Shown here piece by piece: positions 7,633 to 36,244 of a stretch of 36,256 nucleotides of DNA; the stretch's first letter is position 1; the number at the start of each line of letters is the position of its first letter. The DNA is from Cyanobacteria bacterium HKST-UBA04. Its GTDB lineage: Bacteria > Cyanobacteriota > Vampirovibrionia > Vampirovibrionales > JAGQHJ01. The position numbers and the translations under genes are program-made. The notes beneath the pieces are model-generated. The model worked only from the letters and a program-made list of their open reading frames with translations, did no database searches and was not told where the DNA came from. The stretch lies in assembly GCA_020431915.1 (NCBI GenBank), contig JAGQHJ010000019.1:1-36256 (forward strand), read 5' to 3'.

Positions 7633-9426
7633 ATGCCTCTTATGCAAGGTCGAGGTAAACATACAGGCAGCCAGACAGGTAACCCTACCGCACACGTCTG
7701 CCTGATTCGCCCACCGGCTGCTGAAAAGTTCCGGTTATCTTCAACGTCAGTCACACTGCCGCTGGGGCTGGCTTATATTGCCGGGGCGCTTGAAGGTCAG
7801 GGACACCAGGTTTCGGTTATTGATGCCGTGGGGTTGGCCCCCACACACCATACCCGCTATTACACCGGCTACCTGGTCGGACTCAGCTTTGAAGCCATTG
7901 TCGATCGTATCGATCCGGCCTGCACCTGCATCGGCATCAGCGTCATCTTTACCCATGAATGGCCAATGGCCGTCAAGCTCATCGAGGCCATCCGCCGCCG
8001 GTTTCCTGCCACCCCCATTATCCTGGGAGGCGAGCACGTGACGGCCCTGCCCGAGTTTTGCCTGGCCACGTCGCAGGCCAGCGTGGTGGTGGCCGGAGAA
8101 GGGGAGGAAACCGTTATTGAACTGGTCGAGACCCTAAGCCGCCACACCAGTCTTGAAGGCATTCTGGGTATTGCCTACCGTCAGGGCGAGGCCATCCACG
8201 TTAACCCGAGACGGCCCCGGCAAACCAACATCGATGCCGTGGCCCGCCCGGCCTGGCACCATTTTGACCTGCATGCCTACCATCGCCACCGCTTTGTGGG
8301 TGGCATGGTAACCGACCGGCTTACCATCCCCATTCTGGCCACCCGGGGCTGCCCCTACCAATGCACCTACTGCTCGTCCCCCAACATGTGGACGCCCAAG
8401 TGGGTTCCGCGTACGCCAGAGGCCGTCGTCGACGAAATCGAGACGTACGTTAAGCAGTACGGGGCCCGAAACTTCCCCTTCCAGGATCTGACCGCCATTT
8501 TGGATCGCGACTGGATCCTCCGGTTTTGCAAGGCCTTGCAGGATCGAAACCTCGACATTACCTGGCTGCTGCCCACGGGCACCCGCGCCGAAGCCATCGA
8601 CGAAACCGTGGCCCAGGCCCTGAAAGATACGGGCATGGTCAGCATGGCCTATGCCCCGGAGTCCGGGTCGGAGACCACCCGGAAGCTGGTTAAAAAGCGC
8701 ATGCACACCCAGGCCCTGTTCGACAGTATCCAGGCCGCCCTGGCACAAGACTTGAACGTGGCCCTGTTCATGGTCATCGGCTTTCCGCACGACACCCCCC
8801 AACACCTCGACGAAACCATGGCCTTCCTTGAGGACGTTGCTCGGATTGGTGCAGAGGATGTTGCCATTGCCTACTACATGGCCATGCCCGGCACCCAGCT
8901 GTTTGGCAGCCTGTACGACAGCGGCCAAATCCGGATGGACCGCACCTATTTTAACCACCTGTTTGCCAATTCGGATCTGATCCCCGTCAGTTCCTACGCC
9001 CCCCACCTCTCGCGCTGGCAACTGTTTTGGGCTAAGTGCCGCTTTTATCTCAAGTTTTACTGCTTTAGCCCCCATGCCAAACGCAGCCGGTCCGGCCTGG
9101 CCTTCTTGCGACAGGCCATCGGCAGCTTTTTCAGCCGAAACGGCCACCAAAGCCGCATGCAATCGGCCCTGACAGCAGGGGTTCGCTCCGGCTGGCACAC
9201 CCTGGTCGTACAGTTCACCCCCCCATGGATTCCCCGTGCCGAAGAAGACGCCTTGTTTGCCGACTGGGATCGCCTCTACCGCGACATCCGGCAAAATCGC
9301 CAGCAACAACGGCCAGCCCTGCACTATCCAGCCAACACCACCCTGCTGCACAAACAAGCGGTTCAGCACATGCTGGGCCACGAGCATGCCGGCCTGGACA
9401 AGCCGATGGTTTTAAGCCTCCGCTAG
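7633..9426 (+). CDS. B12-binding-domain radical SAM protein
   Basis: 597 residues. Residues ~20-190 form a cobalamin-binding-like Rossmann domain (VCLIRPP, LPLGLAYIAGALEGQGHQVSVIDA, CIGISVIFTHEWP, IILGGEHVTALPE, VVAGEGEETVIEL). The radical SAM core follows, with the 4Fe-4S motif Cys240-x3-Cys244-x2-Cys247 in RGCPYQCTYCSSP and a TGTRAEAID and APESGSE strand pattern. Such BchE/P-methylase-class enzymes do methylation, cyclisation or other radical chemistry; the substrate cannot be read. The ~150-residue C-terminal region is basic and aromatic. ATG 7642 is an alternative start: a TAGAAT hexamer ends 7 nt before it, which would give a leaderless message. The stop interlocks with that of the convergent next gene. 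Confidence 0.88.
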   Translation: MPLMQGRGKHTGSQTGNPTAHVCLIRPPAAEKFRLSSTSVTLPLGLAYIAGALEGQGHQVSVIDAVGLAPTHHTRYYTGYLVGLSFEAIVDRIDPACTCIGISVIFTHEWPMAVKLIEAIRRRFPATPIILGGEHVTALPEFCLATSQASVVVAGEGEETVIELVETLSRHTSLEGILGIAYRQGEAIHVNPRRPRQTNIDAVARPAWHHFDLHAYHRHRFVGGMVTDRLTIPILATRGCPYQCTYCSSPNMWTPKWVPRTPEAVVDEIETYVKQYGARNFPFQDLTAILDRDWILRFCKALQDRNLDITWLLPTGTRAEAIDETVAQALKDTGMVSMAYAPESGSETTRKLVKKRMHTQALFDSIQAALAQDLNVALFMVIGFPHDTPQHLDETMAFLEDVARIGAEDVAIAYYMAMPGTQLFGSLYDSGQIRMDRTYFNHLFANSDLIPVSSYAPHLSRWQLFWAKCRFYLKFYCFSPHAKRSRSGLAFLRQAIGSFFSRNGHQSRMQSALTAGVRSGWHTLVVQFTPPWIPRAEEDALFADWDRLYRDIRQNRQQQRPALHYPANTTLLHKQAVQHMLGHEHAGLDKPMVLSLR

Positions 9427-15578: not shown

Positions 15579-15731
15579 CAGGAAAAAACGCTCCAAAGGG
15601 TCAATAATATTACATTATTAGTAAAAAATAGGCCCATGTCACTATCCAAGCCCGTGTCCCTGCCCTATGATGGAGGGGCGAGACACCCTCAATACTCCTA
15701 ATACCCCTGACAGAAAGGCTTGCAACCGCCT

Positions 15732-16373
15732 ATGATGCCGGTATCTGCCTTCACTACAACGCAGTCAGCCTTATCAACCCGCCCCTTTGCCTGGCAGCAA
15801 AAAAAACACCAACCGGCCTTCGGGCTAACGTTCAACTTCCTGCCCTTTGAGCCGGTTGCCAGCAACAAAGGCGAAGCCAGCAAGCCAGAAGCAGCTCCGA
15901 TATGGGCCCAAGCCCGTCAAAACCTGATTCGTTGGGTTGAAGGCCTGCTAACCGCCCCCGCTGACGAAAAAACCACCCGGTCGGCAGCCAGCTTAATTGT
16001 GGCCGACCTGGCCTCGCCCCCGACCGAGCTGGTGGGCGACGAGCGATTGCACCCCCAAATCCCGCATTTCGTTCTCTGGCAGCTATTCTCCGACCCACGG
16101 GCCAAGGACATCTGCATTGACATCCTCCCCTGGCACCGGCAAGGGTTTAACCACTTCCGGGCCTTCGTCCCGCATGACCCAGACAAGCACCTGTTTTTCA
16201 CGGTGGATCAGGCCGTCAACAGCCTGTCCGATACCCGGGTCTTCCTGCAGGAAATTGCCCGGCGCCTCAGCGTAGCCTTGTACCTGCATCATGGCGAAAC
16301 CGACGAACCCCGCCTGACCTTTGGCCCCGGCCCCAGCGGCGAGAACAACGAAGGCCATCCAGAGAACCCCTAG
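15732..16373 (+). CDS. hypothetical protein with N-terminal PAFGxT motif
   Basis: 213 residues from ATG 15732 (GAAAGG about 13 nt upstream; ATG 15735 is equally possible). After a ~27-residue Thr/Ser-rich leader comes HQPAFGLTFNFLPF, the motif shared with the two paralogs at 34904 and 35542. The centre is helical and probably soluble (QNLIRWVEGLLTAP, VLWQLFSDPRAKDICIDIL, VFLQEIARRLSVALYLHH). The C-terminus is Gly/Pro/Glu-rich and low complexity. No catalytic motif or membrane segment. Function unknown. Confidence 0.65.
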   Translation: MMPVSAFTTTQSALSTRPFAWQQKKHQPAFGLTFNFLPFEPVASNKGEASKPEAAPIWAQARQNLIRWVEGLLTAPADEKTTRSAASLIVADLASPPTELVGDERLHPQIPHFVLWQLFSDPRAKDICIDILPWHRQGFNHFRAFVPHDPDKHLFFTVDQAVNSLSDTRVFLQEIARRLSVALYLHHGETDEPRLTFGPGPSGENNEGHPENP

Positions 16374-23105: not shown

Positions 23106-23885
23106 ATGATTTCAGCACTCTCACAACCGACCGCAACTGCACCCCGCTTCGGGCGGGTAGCCATTACGGCCGTGGATAACACCAACGATGTGCAAGACGG
23201 TAAAACCCGCGTTTCGATGACATTTACGCCCGATGGCGGCGGCAAGTATGCTGTGGATTGGCTCACACCGGGCAACGAATCCAAACAGGCCGTCCACATG
23301 GCCGGTCGTGGCGATGCCGACGTAGAACGGCTCAGCGGCTTAATTGATCGCTACCAAAGAGACAGCTGGAACCCGGACTATACCACCCCGTTTCTGGAGC
23401 GTGCTCATGGGTTCTTAAGAAGAACCGCCCCCACCCTGGCCGACGGGTTGGCTGTCAAAGTCAACAGCCCGCTTGAAGGGGTGCAAACCCTGTACGACCC
23501 CACCACCCATGCCCTGAGATTTAACTGGACCATGGACAAGCCCGCCCTGACCTCTCCTGGCGACGAGCTGGCCCAGTCGCGAAAGGGCCATGGGCTCGGC
23601 AAACAACAGGTCGGAGAACCGACCATTAAGCCGGCCAAGGATCTGCCCGCCCAGTACAAGGCCCCTGCCGCCGGCAATATGGGCAACCTGATGGCCGTCC
23701 TTGCCCCACTCGCCCTTTGGGCCGCTTCACGAGGCCGCTTCGCCGCCGGACCGCTCCCCAAGTTTTCCAACCAGTCGAGCATGAGCCCCTTGCCCCAGCA
23801 GAATGACCAAACCGCATTCAGCGCCAATCACCGCCAACCGTCCCGCCCCGCCTACCCCCGTCCCACCTACAACTACTACGCTTAA
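23106..23885 (+). CDS. hypothetical protein with N-terminal PRFG motif
   Basis: 259 residues from ATG 23106; no clear ribosome site, the preceding bases being the end of a repeat array. The N-terminus TAPRFGRVAITAVDN carries the short P-x-F-G motif seen in other small proteins here. A strand-rich part follows (KTRVSMTFTPDGGGKYAVDWLTPG), then helices (ERLSGLIDRYQRDSW, LERAHGFLRR). Residues ~195-215 are mildly hydrophobic (NLMAVLAPLALWAAS) and could be a membrane segment. The C-terminus is Pro/Gln/Tyr-rich. No family recognised. Confidence 0.65.
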   Translation: MISALSQPTATAPRFGRVAITAVDNTNDVQDGKTRVSMTFTPDGGGKYAVDWLTPGNESKQAVHMAGRGDADVERLSGLIDRYQRDSWNPDYTTPFLERAHGFLRRTAPTLADGLAVKVNSPLEGVQTLYDPTTHALRFNWTMDKPALTSPGDELAQSRKGHGLGKQQVGEPTIKPAKDLPAQYKAPAAGNMGNLMAVLAPLALWAASRGRFAAGPLPKFSNQSSMSPLPQQNDQTAFSANHRQPSRPAYPRPTYNYYA

Positions 23886-28714: not shown

Positions 28715-30283
28715 TCAAAGGGCTGCCGCGCTCCCAAGAGAAGGCAGGCTACGGGGGATTCCCCCTGCCCCAGCGTCGGTATCCGCATCCGTCTGGGCAT
28801 CGTCGGCCGCCGCAGGGATGGGAATACGGCAGGTAATGCAGCTGCCGGGCACCGAGCCCCCCAACCGCCAACTGCCCCAACCCCGGCCCCCTTGCACAAC
28901 GGGGCTCATTAACAGCGGTACCCGCCCGGCCCTAAACATGCGGCTCAGGGCAAACGGCCCAGGGCGGTGGCGATCGCGGTTGTTTACAATCTCAAGGGTG
29001 CCACCGACGCTTTCCACCAGTTCCTTGACCCGTCCCAGGCCGTAGCCGGTGCCGGGAATATGCTCGTGCTGCTGTGACCGGCCCCCTTCCTCAAGCAACC
29101 GGGGCAGCTCGGCCATATCAAACCCGTCGCCCGTATCGGCCACCTGAATAACCAAGGTATTGGCCCGCTTGGCCGCTTCCGAACCATGTTTGCTGCCAGG
29201 CCACTGCTTGGGGCCGTTAAACATGGCCCAGTTGGCGTTATCAATGGGCGGCCCCATATACACCGTTACCGCTCCCTCATTGGGGGTGTATTTAATGGCG
29301 TTGCTCACCAGGTTGGATATCAGGCCGTACAGCTGGTCCGGGCGCAGGGGCAGGCGGCCCCCTAACTGCCAGTCGTCCACAAACCCGTTGGCGGCGTCGT
29401 GAAAGGTAATGGCCTTCTCCCCGGCTTCGCGCTTGGCATTCAGCACGGCATGGGTAAATATCGACACGGCACTGAAGGGCCGACCCTGATCATTGACCAT
29501 GCCTTCCGGTTTCAACAGGCCCTTGCGTTCTAAAAAGGCAAACTGCCGGGCCAGCAATATCAGGCGATTCACGTTGCTCTTCACCTGCCGGGCCAGTTCC
29601 TGGCGCGCCTCGGCTTCGGGCATGGGCAATTCGCCATTCTTGGGCTGCATTAGCCGGGGCACCTTAATGCCGGCCAGCTCCAGGCGGTTTAATACGTTGG
29701 CCTGCACGGCATGGCGCACATCGCCGCGAAAAGTGCTGACCCGCGCGCGTTGCACCCCGGCATCATCCGACACGTCATCCGGCACCGGGGCGTATTTGTC
29801 TTCAATCGCCCGAAGCCAGTTGTCAAACAGGTTCATGGCCCGATGGGCCGTCTCGGCCAGCGTCGAGGGCCAGTCATCAACCGGCCGGGTATGGAGCTGG
29901 GCCAAGGGGGTCAGCAGCGCTTCCAGTTCATCGGCCAGTGGGGGCAACTCTTGGCGCCGAAGCCGTAACGCTGGCGTTGGAGAAGGCGTTCTGAGCGAAG
30001 AGGCCGGCTGTTGTGCCTGCCGCATCTGCTGCAGGCGCCACGCCGCCGGGGTCATACCCGCCGGCGGCCCCGCTGTCAAGGGTGTCACGGGTACCGGAGG
30101 CGCCGAACCAGCCATGCCCGAAGGGGACGGCTCGTCGCTGTTGTTACCAAACTGCACCGAATCAGGCCGCCAGCCAATCGATGCCATAGGCATCCGACCC
30201 GAAGATCGGTACTGCAGAACAGTCGGGGTAGGCGGGGCGGGTCTGACGGCCCTCAAGGCATTGAATTGAACAGGCTTAACCAT
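28715..30283 (-). CDS. soluble histidine-kinase-like ATPase protein
   Basis: 522 residues from ATG 30283. The C-terminal half is a GHKL ATPase domain: N box GLISNLVSNAIKYTPNEG, G1 box VADTGDGFD, G2 box GTGYGLGRVKELVESVGGTLEI, and a final SCITCRIPIP strand after a ~50-residue insertion. No membrane segment or receiver domain was seen. No canonical H-E-x-R/N-P H-box is present; a helix GDVRHAVQANVLNRLELAG is the best place for a phospho-acceptor His. The N-terminal 110 residues are Pro/Ala-rich and disordered, with VKPVQFN and DSVQFGN motifs like the P-x-F-G motif nearby. Downstream: 50 residues of low-complexity tail. A role in phosphotransfer signalling is likely but unproven; no response regulator is adjacent. 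Confidence 0.8.
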   Translation of the reverse strand: MVKPVQFNALRAVRPAPPTPTVLQYRSSGRMPMASIGWRPDSVQFGNNSDEPSPSGMAGSAPPVPVTPLTAGPPAGMTPAAWRLQQMRQAQQPASSLRTPSPTPALRLRRQELPPLADELEALLTPLAQLHTRPVDDWPSTLAETAHRAMNLFDNWLRAIEDKYAPVPDDVSDDAGVQRARVSTFRGDVRHAVQANVLNRLELAGIKVPRLMQPKNGELPMPEAEARQELARQVKSNVNRLILLARQFAFLERKGLLKPEGMVNDQGRPFSAVSIFTHAVLNAKREAGEKAITFHDAANGFVDDWQLGGRLPLRPDQLYGLISNLVSNAIKYTPNEGAVTVYMGPPIDNANWAMFNGPKQWPGSKHGSEAAKRANTLVIQVADTGDGFDMAELPRLLEEGGRSQQHEHIPGTGYGLGRVKELVESVGGTLEIVNNRDRHRPGPFALSRMFRAGRVPLLMSPVVQGGRGWGSWRLGGSVPGSCITCRIPIPAAADDAQTDADTDAGAGGIPRSLPSLGSAAAL

Positions 30284-30776
30284 AAGAAACGAGTGCAATT
30301 AACCACAACAGCCCTTTGACAGGTAGCAGGTGATAGGTGGAAGGTCAAACGGGACGAGATAGGACCATTTCCGGGTCAACACCGGGGCAACACCGGGCCA
30401 AACCGGGCAACAACCTGCACAAAGCCACACAGCATCAGGGTCAGGGGGCATTTTTTGGGCATGGTCATCATACCTGAGTAAACACCGCCAATGCAAAGGC
30501 ATTGCCCCCCAAACGCCGGTTTGTTTACACACCGGCCGGACGCCAGCCACAGCCGTGGTTTAACGACCGTTCTATTTTGTGCCCACCCTACCCTCGTGAC
30601 AATACGCAGGGAACCGCCACGACAGCACGCAGAGGATAGCCGCTACAGCACGCAGAGGATAGCAAAAAGTACGCTGTTTTGAGTACAATGGAAGTCCGGC
30701 TTTCGGCCGGCCCAGGGCTAAAGCTTGCTCAAGCCCGTTTTGTATCCGCATCCGTGCATTTGCCTGCCTCAGCACG
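30284..30776. repeat. divergent intergenic region with 23-bp period repeat
   Basis: No gene. ACAGCACGCAGAGGATAGC is present at 30622-30640 and 30645-30663. A small hairpin CAATGC-AAAG-GCATTG lies near 30489-30504. TACAAT at about 30684-30690 could be the -10 of the exonuclease gene; no good -35 was found. Confidence 0.6.
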
Positions 30777-34903: not shown

Positions 34904-35407
34904 ATGCGTGTTTTACCAACAACGCCCCCATCGCCTGCCTTTGGTCAACCCTATACCGCTGCTTCGCCTGCCTTTGGTCAAACCTACGTCATCCCGTTTT
35001 CGCGGGTGGCGCGTTTTTTCACTCGACGTGGGGAACTGCTCGTCGACCAGGCTCCGGCCTACATGCAAACCCTGACCCAGCTCACCGGCGATCGGGCCTT
35101 CGAAGCCGACAACGACAAACCGTCTGGCGCGAGCGGGTTTGACGTGGTCAGCTTCATGGACTCTTTCGGCTACTACACCACCAGCCAGCAACACCCCGAC
35201 GCGCGCCAGACCGATCGATTCTTGTACGTGCTAACCAACACCCACTACCCCTCGGCTCAAACCGCTTCCAGCCCAGGTCCTCGGCAAGCCCCCAGCCCCG
35301 TTGAAGCCATGCGGTTTCACAGCGACCGGCAGCCCCTCGAAGCGTTTTTGAAACAAGCACTGGCCGACGGGCAAGTGACCTACATCCGGCACGAACCGCT
35401 CAACTAA
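34904..35407 (+). CDS. small lineage-specific protein, PAFG family, copy 1
   Basis: 167 residues. After MRVLP come two PAFGQ units, encoded by an 18-bp direct repeat with a 33-bp period (34931-34948 and 34964-34981). The block PAFGQTYVIPFSRV...QLTGD aligns without gaps over 42 residues to PAFGMTHIVPLDNF...GLTGD of the next gene, and LYVLTNTHYPSA to LMVLFTNTDTPTA; both end in a helix plus strand (AFLKQALADGQVTYI). They are clear paralogs. No signal peptide or known domain. CGGAG lies about 13 nt upstream of the ATG. Confidence 0.7.
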   Translation: MRVLPTTPPSPAFGQPYTAASPAFGQTYVIPFSRVARFFTRRGELLVDQAPAYMQTLTQLTGDRAFEADNDKPSGASGFDVVSFMDSFGYYTTSQQHPDARQTDRFLYVLTNTHYPSAQTASSPGPRQAPSPVEAMRFHSDRQPLEAFLKQALADGQVTYIRHEPLN

Positions 35408-35427
35408 CCCCTTAAAACGAGGCCACC

Positions 35428-35509
35428 GGCCCGGTCCCGAGGCCCCGTCTCGTGGCCCGGTCCCGAGCCCTAACCAACGCCTGTGATATACTGCCGTATA
35501 TTACTACTG
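35428..35509 (+). promoter_or_regulatory. 26-bp-period repeat, dyad ATATACTGCCGTATAT and TATATTACT element
   Basis: GGCCCGGTCCCGAG occurs at 35428-35441 and 35454-35467. A perfect dyad ATATAC-TGCC-GTATAT (35486-35501) follows, merging with TATATTACT (35497-35505), the core of the AT-rich elements before the 11617 and 12650 genes. It lies 40-55 bp before the ATG at 35542, a position fit for a promoter and operator. Confidence 0.5.
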
Positions 35510-35541
35510 CATTCGGTACGCGATGAGGAGATCTGTGGCCC

Positions 35542-36054
35542 ATGCGCGTTTTACCGGCACGGTACCGGCCCATAAGGCAGCCCATAACGCGGTCCATCGG
35601 TGGCCATGACGCCCAGCCGCCGAAACGACCCCAACCACCCGCCTTTGGGATGACCCATATCGTGCCGCTGGACAATTTCCCCGACCATTTTGATACCCAG
35701 GGCCGGGTACTGCCCCACAAGCAGGACGACCTGCTGGCCAAACTCTTCGGGTTAACCGGCGACCCCGTGCTGAATGCGGCCACAGCCCCCGGCACGGGCG
35801 TGGTACAGCACGGCCCGGCCGATTTGTGGTTGCAGACCGACCCGGCCAACCACTTCAGCTCGCAGGTGCCCCACCCCCAGGGGCCGTATTTCAACGGCCT
35901 GATGGTGCTGTTTACCAACACCGACACGCCCACGGCCACGCGCTACGATCAGTCGGGCATCCCGGCCATGCCCAACAAGGCCGATCGGGTGGATCCGCTT
36001 CTGGCCTTTATTCTGGCCGAGCATCAGCAAGGCTGGGTTCGCTTTTACGCCTGA
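35542..36054 (+). CDS. small lineage-specific protein, PAFG family, copy 2
   Basis: 170 residues from ATG 35542, with GAGGAG 11 nt upstream. It begins MRVLP like its neighbour, has a Pro/Arg-rich leader, then PPAFGMTHIVPLDNF and GLTGD. The body is soluble, with GLMVLFTNTDTPTATRYD and a C-terminal LLAFILAEHQQGWVRFYA. It is a tandem paralog of the 34904 gene, diverged to roughly a quarter to a third identity by eye in the aligned blocks. No catalytic motif is evident. Confidence 0.72.
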   Translation: MRVLPARYRPIRQPITRSIGGHDAQPPKRPQPPAFGMTHIVPLDNFPDHFDTQGRVLPHKQDDLLAKLFGLTGDPVLNAATAPGTGVVQHGPADLWLQTDPANHFSSQVPHPQGPYFNGLMVLFTNTDTPTATRYDQSGIPAMPNKADRVDPLLAFILAEHQQGWVRFYA

Positions 36055-36078: not shown

Positions 36079-36244
36079 GCATCGAACCTGACCGGGCGCG
36101 AATCGGCAACGCTTTTTTCTGGCTGGGGCTGCAGGCGGTTCGGCCCCCTGTTATAAAGCCTGCATCGAACCTGACCGGACGCGAACCGGCAACGCTTTTT
36201 TCTGGCTGGGGCTGCAGGCGGTTCGGCCCCCTGTTATAAAGCCT
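36079..36244. repeat. 83-bp tandem direct repeat, two copies, open to window end
   Basis: The unit beginning GCATCGAACCTGACCGG occurs at 36079-36161 and again at 36162-36244, with only two mismatches seen; GCATCG begins a third copy. Each unit holds TTTTTT, a GGGGC...GCCCC stem and TTATAAA. The next few bases (GAAGTG) depart from the unit. Confidence 0.92.

Follow-up and report, generated by a model that had tools for sequence, protein, structure and literature searches.

A P-x-F-G leader common to a tandem pair of small paralogs and dozens of other proteins in Cyanobacteria bacterium HKST-UBA04: a candidate sorting or docking signal

Two adjacent small genes at one end of a contig of Cyanobacteria bacterium HKST-UBA04 are, judging from their sequences, paralogs of a six-member, lineage-restricted family, and both begin with a leader containing the motif P-x-F-G (PxFG), which is found near the N-terminus in about 4-5% of the sampled genes of this genome. 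The PxFG leader probably acts as a modular signal for sorting or docking at the N-terminus, with flagellar-type type III export as a candidate route. The genome assembly comprises 2.7 Mb in 180 contigs and is 87.65% complete, and the window, i.e., the whole stretch of 36,256 nucleotides that was analysed, is an entire contig (C94). The features of the tandem pair are as follows.

34904..35407, plus strand: copy 1, 167 aa, with a short leader (residues 1-21) containing two PxFG motifs, followed over residues 24-160 by a small domain predicted to be alpha/beta
34931-34948 and 34964-34981, plus strand: exact 18-bp direct repeat TCGCCTGCCTTTGGTCAA in copy 1, an in-frame duplication of SPAFGQ
35542..36054, plus strand: copy 2, 170 aa, with a leader (residues 1-32), PAFG (residues 33-36) and then the same predicted domain as in copy 1
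35638..35649, plus strand: PAFG motif of copy 2, ending an acid-poor leader

The two open reading frames, which both start with MRVLP as reported in a preliminary description of this DNA, lie 134 bp apart in the same orientation, with ATG starts and GGAG- or GAGGAG-like stretches upstream. Several similarities listed in that description were recovered, including an ungapped alignment from PAFG to LTGD over 42 residues (P22-D63 of copy 1 versus P33-D74 of copy 2), a TNT-x-x-P-[ST]-A block in both proteins and a C-terminal helix predicted for both. Homology of the two copies is substantiated by a local alignment score of 114, compared with shuffled scores (n = 2000) that average 32 and do not exceed 58, and after removal of the leader and PAFG the score is 88 versus a shuffle maximum of 62. 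In agreement with the claim that neither protein has a known domain, Pfam and NCBIfam searches returned 0 matches for both copies. The internal duplication of PAFGQ pointed out in copy 1 corresponds to the 18-bp repeat at 34931 and 34964, with an offset of 33 bp, and its exactness at the DNA level suggests that the duplication is recent. Between the paralogs, at 35428-35470, there are three 17-nt near-copies of GGCCCGGTCCCGAGGCC with 13-nt spacing. An 83-bp tandem repeat, whose copies are 98% identical, occupies positions 36079-36244 just 3' of copy 2 and extends up to 12 bp from the contig end; such a repeat may be the reason for the assembly break at this point.

Structure prediction did not yield the different folds that would speak against relatedness of the two proteins. 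The AlphaFold models of copies 1 and 2 place the same elements in one common order (strand, helix, strands, helices, strand), albeit at low pLDDT (means of 56 and 61) and from one small shared alignment; because four sequences underlie both models alike, little weight can be put on their similarity. The leaders are low-confidence regions in both models. No PDB match was obtained for either copy, and a Foldseek search of the PDB with these low-confidence models likewise gave no match at E<=0.001.

Searching the genome with either copy returned the same four loci, two on C94 and one each on C138 and C176 (E 2e-15 to 5e-6). Two divergent members were found side by side on the minus strand of contig C135 (L063:6890-7666 and 7699-8385), and as a two-row profile this pair aligns to the four-member profile over 117 columns (hhalign E 2.5e-7, probability 93); the second C135 protein alone showed no significant match to the same profile (E 0.08). 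The count of family members, proposed earlier as a check, is six, with 22-33% identity to copy 1. No match to the four-row profile was detected in the 288 other genomes of the class (289 sampled). With the six-row profile, 0 of 57 relatives gave a hit at E<=0.01, and the sub-threshold values of two members of the class (E 0.14 and 0.43) resemble noise. The pair is thus well described as tandem paralogs of an unrecognised, fast-diverging small-protein family.

The preliminary description also suggested, as inference, that such genes may serve an interface with other organisms or phage; if the pair are phage- or host-interface proteins of this kind, the motif would be incidental. Tandem duplication, fast divergence and presence in only one sampled genome are in keeping with such a role, but viral contigs, PHROG and PADLOC are all without a match to either copy or to the family, so the phage link found no support, and the genome-wide occurrence of the motif means that it is not incidental to the tandem pair. 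This reading therefore appears quite improbable. An interface with another organism would be conceivable should the leader serve in export.

The view of the pair as a self-contained family feature was not supported, because PxFG, the most conserved block of the family, is common to dozens of other proteins. The motif was counted in approximately 1.38 Mb, about half of the genome, where a crude purpose-written caller yielded 1114 genes. Among these, 51 have P-x-F-G in the N-terminal zone, compared with 12.4 ± 3.4 after within-zone residue shuffling; chance would account for about 12 of these genes, leaving an excess of about 39 in the half that was read. Extrapolation gives about 100 carriers per genome, of which roughly three quarters exceed the chance level. 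When one position at a time was varied in this genome, P, F and G were the most enriched residues, and the commonest forms are PAFG (18 vs 1.5 expected) and PRFG (11 vs 0.7). VxFG likewise exceeds expectation (35 vs 11.6), which makes the motif boundary loose, and the true form may be [PV]xFG; [^PV].FG is slightly over expectation (154 vs 125.9). The codons at the motif are diverse (CCN, a mixed x codon, TTT/TTC and GGN), which places selection on the protein and rules out a DNA-level element as the source of the motif. No description of a PxFG leader motif was found in open-access papers, with subscription literature and preprints outside the scope of the search.

Could the motif be an artefact, arising by chance or from gene starts misplaced into upstream sequence that is rich in GC and proline? 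The crude caller and the proline-rich leaders lend themselves to such an explanation, and T.PP and PP..T are as strongly enriched in the N-terminal zone as PxFG. However, the composition-preserving shuffles fall far below the observed count, and permuted motifs show no excess (P.GF, 12 vs 12.3 expected; G.FP, 4 vs 12.3 expected). Genes of other phyla with similar GC content are not enriched either, with 3 carriers among 988 genes from 77 loci; this control consists of GTDB loci from a neighbour-gene scan, mostly from Nitrospira and Alphaproteobacteria, and is rich in mutual orthologues, so it is weaker than the 988 genes imply. An artefact is accordingly very improbable, the least probable of the explanations considered.

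Carriers of the motif are for the most part dissimilar proteins. Those in the window other than the tandem pair include the following.

15720..16373, plus strand: apparently unrelated carrier containing ...HQPAFGLTFNF, no Pfam match
23106..23885, plus strand: apparently unrelated carrier containing MISALSQPTATAPRFGRVAIT, no Pfam match
28715..30298, minus strand: HATPase_c protein carrying SVQFGNN, a related V-x-F-G variant located far ahead of the HATPase domain (PF02518)

In an all-against-all blastp comparison (E<=1e-3), only a handful of carriers were linked, and the possibility that they form one blastp family was discarded. A Pfam scan of roughly 35 carriers gave few matches (an M16 peptidase, a 2OG-Fe(II) oxygenase whose gene start is uncertain, and the HATPase protein of the window), and NCBIfam has no matching model for the carriers tested. 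In the M16 peptidase, the motif precedes the enzyme profile by about 50 residues, which indicates a modular leader.

The main alternative is that PxFG opens a single fast-diverging superfamily of small domains, consisting of PxFG, a first strand, a later hhLT[NDEP] strand and a C-terminal helix, so that the motif would reflect common descent and fold and no sorting signal. The first strand of either paralog model begins at FG or no more than two residues from it, and the profile comparison extends the tandem-paralog family to the C135 pair, both of which are consistent with a shared domain. An hhLT[NDEP]-type strand is present in 9 of 43 small carriers versus 40 of 606 other small proteins (p=0.003, a post hoc comparison), and TGD occurs no more than 62 residues after the motif in 5 of 46 carriers, which belong mostly to the tandem-paralog family or the L106 cluster. 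Nevertheless, the motif also stands ahead of the M16 peptidase, the 2OG-Fe(II) oxygenase and a multi-span membrane family, as well as on proteins of 500-1150 aa that lack such a small domain, and acid-poor leaders are general among the carriers. A common superfamily is therefore considered unlikely, and a modular leader is preferred.

Some carriers are neighbours in the genome. Five adjacent pairs were counted versus 1.7 expected (P=0.02), an excess that is given little weight because some of these pairs are homologous duplicates. Three neighbouring [PV]xFG carriers stand in a row at L106:1185-3736, and five of six consecutive called genes at L066:2546-10114 have [PV]xFG; in one gene at the latter locus (L066:3802-5325), PxFG is directly followed by RRQFLQWLGL, which by eye resembles a twin-arginine signal.

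The composition of the leader was determined from 25 carriers with an independently called start upstream of the motif. Asp and Glu together make up 1.2% of leader residues; the figure for matched prefixes taken from other genes is 8.3%, and the lowest of 2000 draws gave 3.2%. Pro accounts for 13% and Ser plus Thr for 21%. In a separate comparison, Arg is enriched (8.6% vs 4.7%) and Leu is about equal. Owing to the crude gene caller, some leader positions may be wrong. A hydrophobic, transmembrane-like window within the first 60 residues was seen in 0 of 46 carriers versus 15% of other genes, i.e., these 46 proteins do not have the hydrophobic N-terminal segment of Sec or Tat signal peptides. 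FxxxPhi is a gate-recognition motif of flagellar substrates, and it was rejected as a match for the leaders, as column counts judged by eye put the hydrophobic positions downstream of PxFG at +3 and +5 relative to its F instead of +4.

Taken as a sorting or docking signal, the leader would be a probably disordered, acid-poor, P/S/T-rich segment ending in P-x-F-G, followed in the tandem pair by a small alpha/beta domain. A putative receptor would recognise PxFG in the unfolded leader and would thereby gather otherwise unrelated proteins at one place, be it a scaffold, an export apparatus or a structure at the pole or surface. In this view, the tandem pair would represent two cargo proteins of that system that diverged after duplication, and the second flagellar-type type III export cluster of the order is a candidate route. 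A bolder version holds that the order (probably Vampirovibrionales) has an undescribed protein-targeting system for which PxFG leaders serve as dedicated sorting signals. This system, perhaps a second flagellar-type export apparatus, would handle many tens of cargo proteins in each genome of this lineage, the tandem pair among them; this is regarded as a speculative and rather unlikely extension. Multi-span membrane proteins are found among the carriers, and so are probable cytosolic enzymes; this mixture speaks against one common secretion route.

Export through a flagellar-type type III system would make the leader an N-terminal secretion signal and its carriers cargo, maybe acting outside the cell on prey or a host. 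This is a specific form of the sorting-signal explanation, with overlapping probability, and in itself it has a low probability. FHIPEP (FlhA/SctV) was detected in each of 18 genomes searched from the order, of which 16 clearly have two full-length or near full-length copies, the exceptions being G010 (81% complete) with one copy and G001 (56% complete) with one copy plus fragments; none was found in G018, from another family of the class. In the genome studied here, a second flagellar-type cluster on contig C135 (L063:3366-15046) encodes FlgF/G-like and rod proteins, an SLT transglycosylase, FliE, FliF and FlhA (the second FHIPEP copy of this genome), and the divergent pair of the paralog family is located between fliE and fliF on the opposite strand. 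The position of the pair in the cluster may be due to chance, and the rod proteins and FliE of the same cluster have no PxFG at their starts. Flagellins are also present in this genome, so at least one of the systems presumably makes a flagellum; in the 2015 genome paper on Vampirovibrio chlorellavorus, one flagellum was described, compared with two FHIPEP copies in nearly all genomes of the order.

Published type III N-terminal signals (EffectiveT3, PMC2669295) are enriched in Ser, Thr and Pro and depleted of acidic residues and Leu, without enrichment of basic residues. PxFG leaders resemble them in being S/T/P-rich, acid-poor and apparently unstructured (low N-terminal pLDDT in the paralog models) and in heading otherwise unrelated proteins. 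They differ from them (PMC2669295) in having a fixed PxFG core, in the enrichment of Arg, in the absence of Leu depletion and in their occurrence on some membrane proteins.

Other routes were dropped, as their machinery was not found here. VirB4 (PF03135) and a contractile sheath were not detected in this 87.65% complete genome, a result that agrees with type III export, and the microcompartment shell protein PF00936 was not found in 19 genomes searched. Across 24 genomes searched for PF03135, matches were limited to G012 (three matches) and G017. V. chlorellavorus possesses three T4SS operons, and T4SS has been proposed to function in its predation (PMC4451040). The agreement with the three VirB4 matches of G012, the kinship of the genomes compared and a 16S 3' end of cyanobacterial appearance in G005 and G007 together suggest class Vampirovibrionia and order Vampirovibrionales. 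That bacterium probably belongs to the same order, and the comparison extends to a secretion-based interaction with prey; the difference lies in the lack of detectable VirB4 in the genome studied here.

Short sorting or docking tags on many proteins of one genome include LPXTG, PEP-CTERM and the targeting peptides of encapsulins or microcompartments. The PxFG leader is similar to these tags in that one short terminal motif is found on many unrelated proteins of a lineage, but it is N-terminal and has no hydrophobic segment, and the PF00936 search speaks against a microcompartment. An N-terminal motif on dozens of otherwise domain-less proteins offers a way into a large set of uncharacterised genes in poorly studied bacteria, a branch that, if the order is correctly assigned, includes predators of algae. 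It also defines a testable list of cargo proteins and a search for one receptor, and the two odd genes of the window can be better understood through a genome-wide motif than as a pair alone.

The motif was also surveyed in related genomes. In a sample of G005, from the same order, there are 5 P.FG carriers versus 1.0 expected; a small sample of G003, from the same family, has 3 versus 1.8 expected, a weak enrichment, and a sample of G020, from the same class, has 0. Homologues of the multi-span membrane family were collected from other genera of the order, and their leaders, which look unalignable, contain FG or PxF[AS]G in 12 of 18 cases versus 2.35 by shuffling, where leader boundaries were cut by hand and the relaxed form PxF[AS]G was picked after the sequences had been seen. 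The strict P.FG count, which is independent of the relaxed form, is 5 of 18 versus 0.25 expected. The membrane paralogs themselves (loci L236-L265 and positions 520-1836 of the window, plus strand) have at least 10 matches in this genome and 9 in G005, and this large family comprises tagged and untagged branches, the copy at 520-1836 being a weak match (E 1.8e-9).
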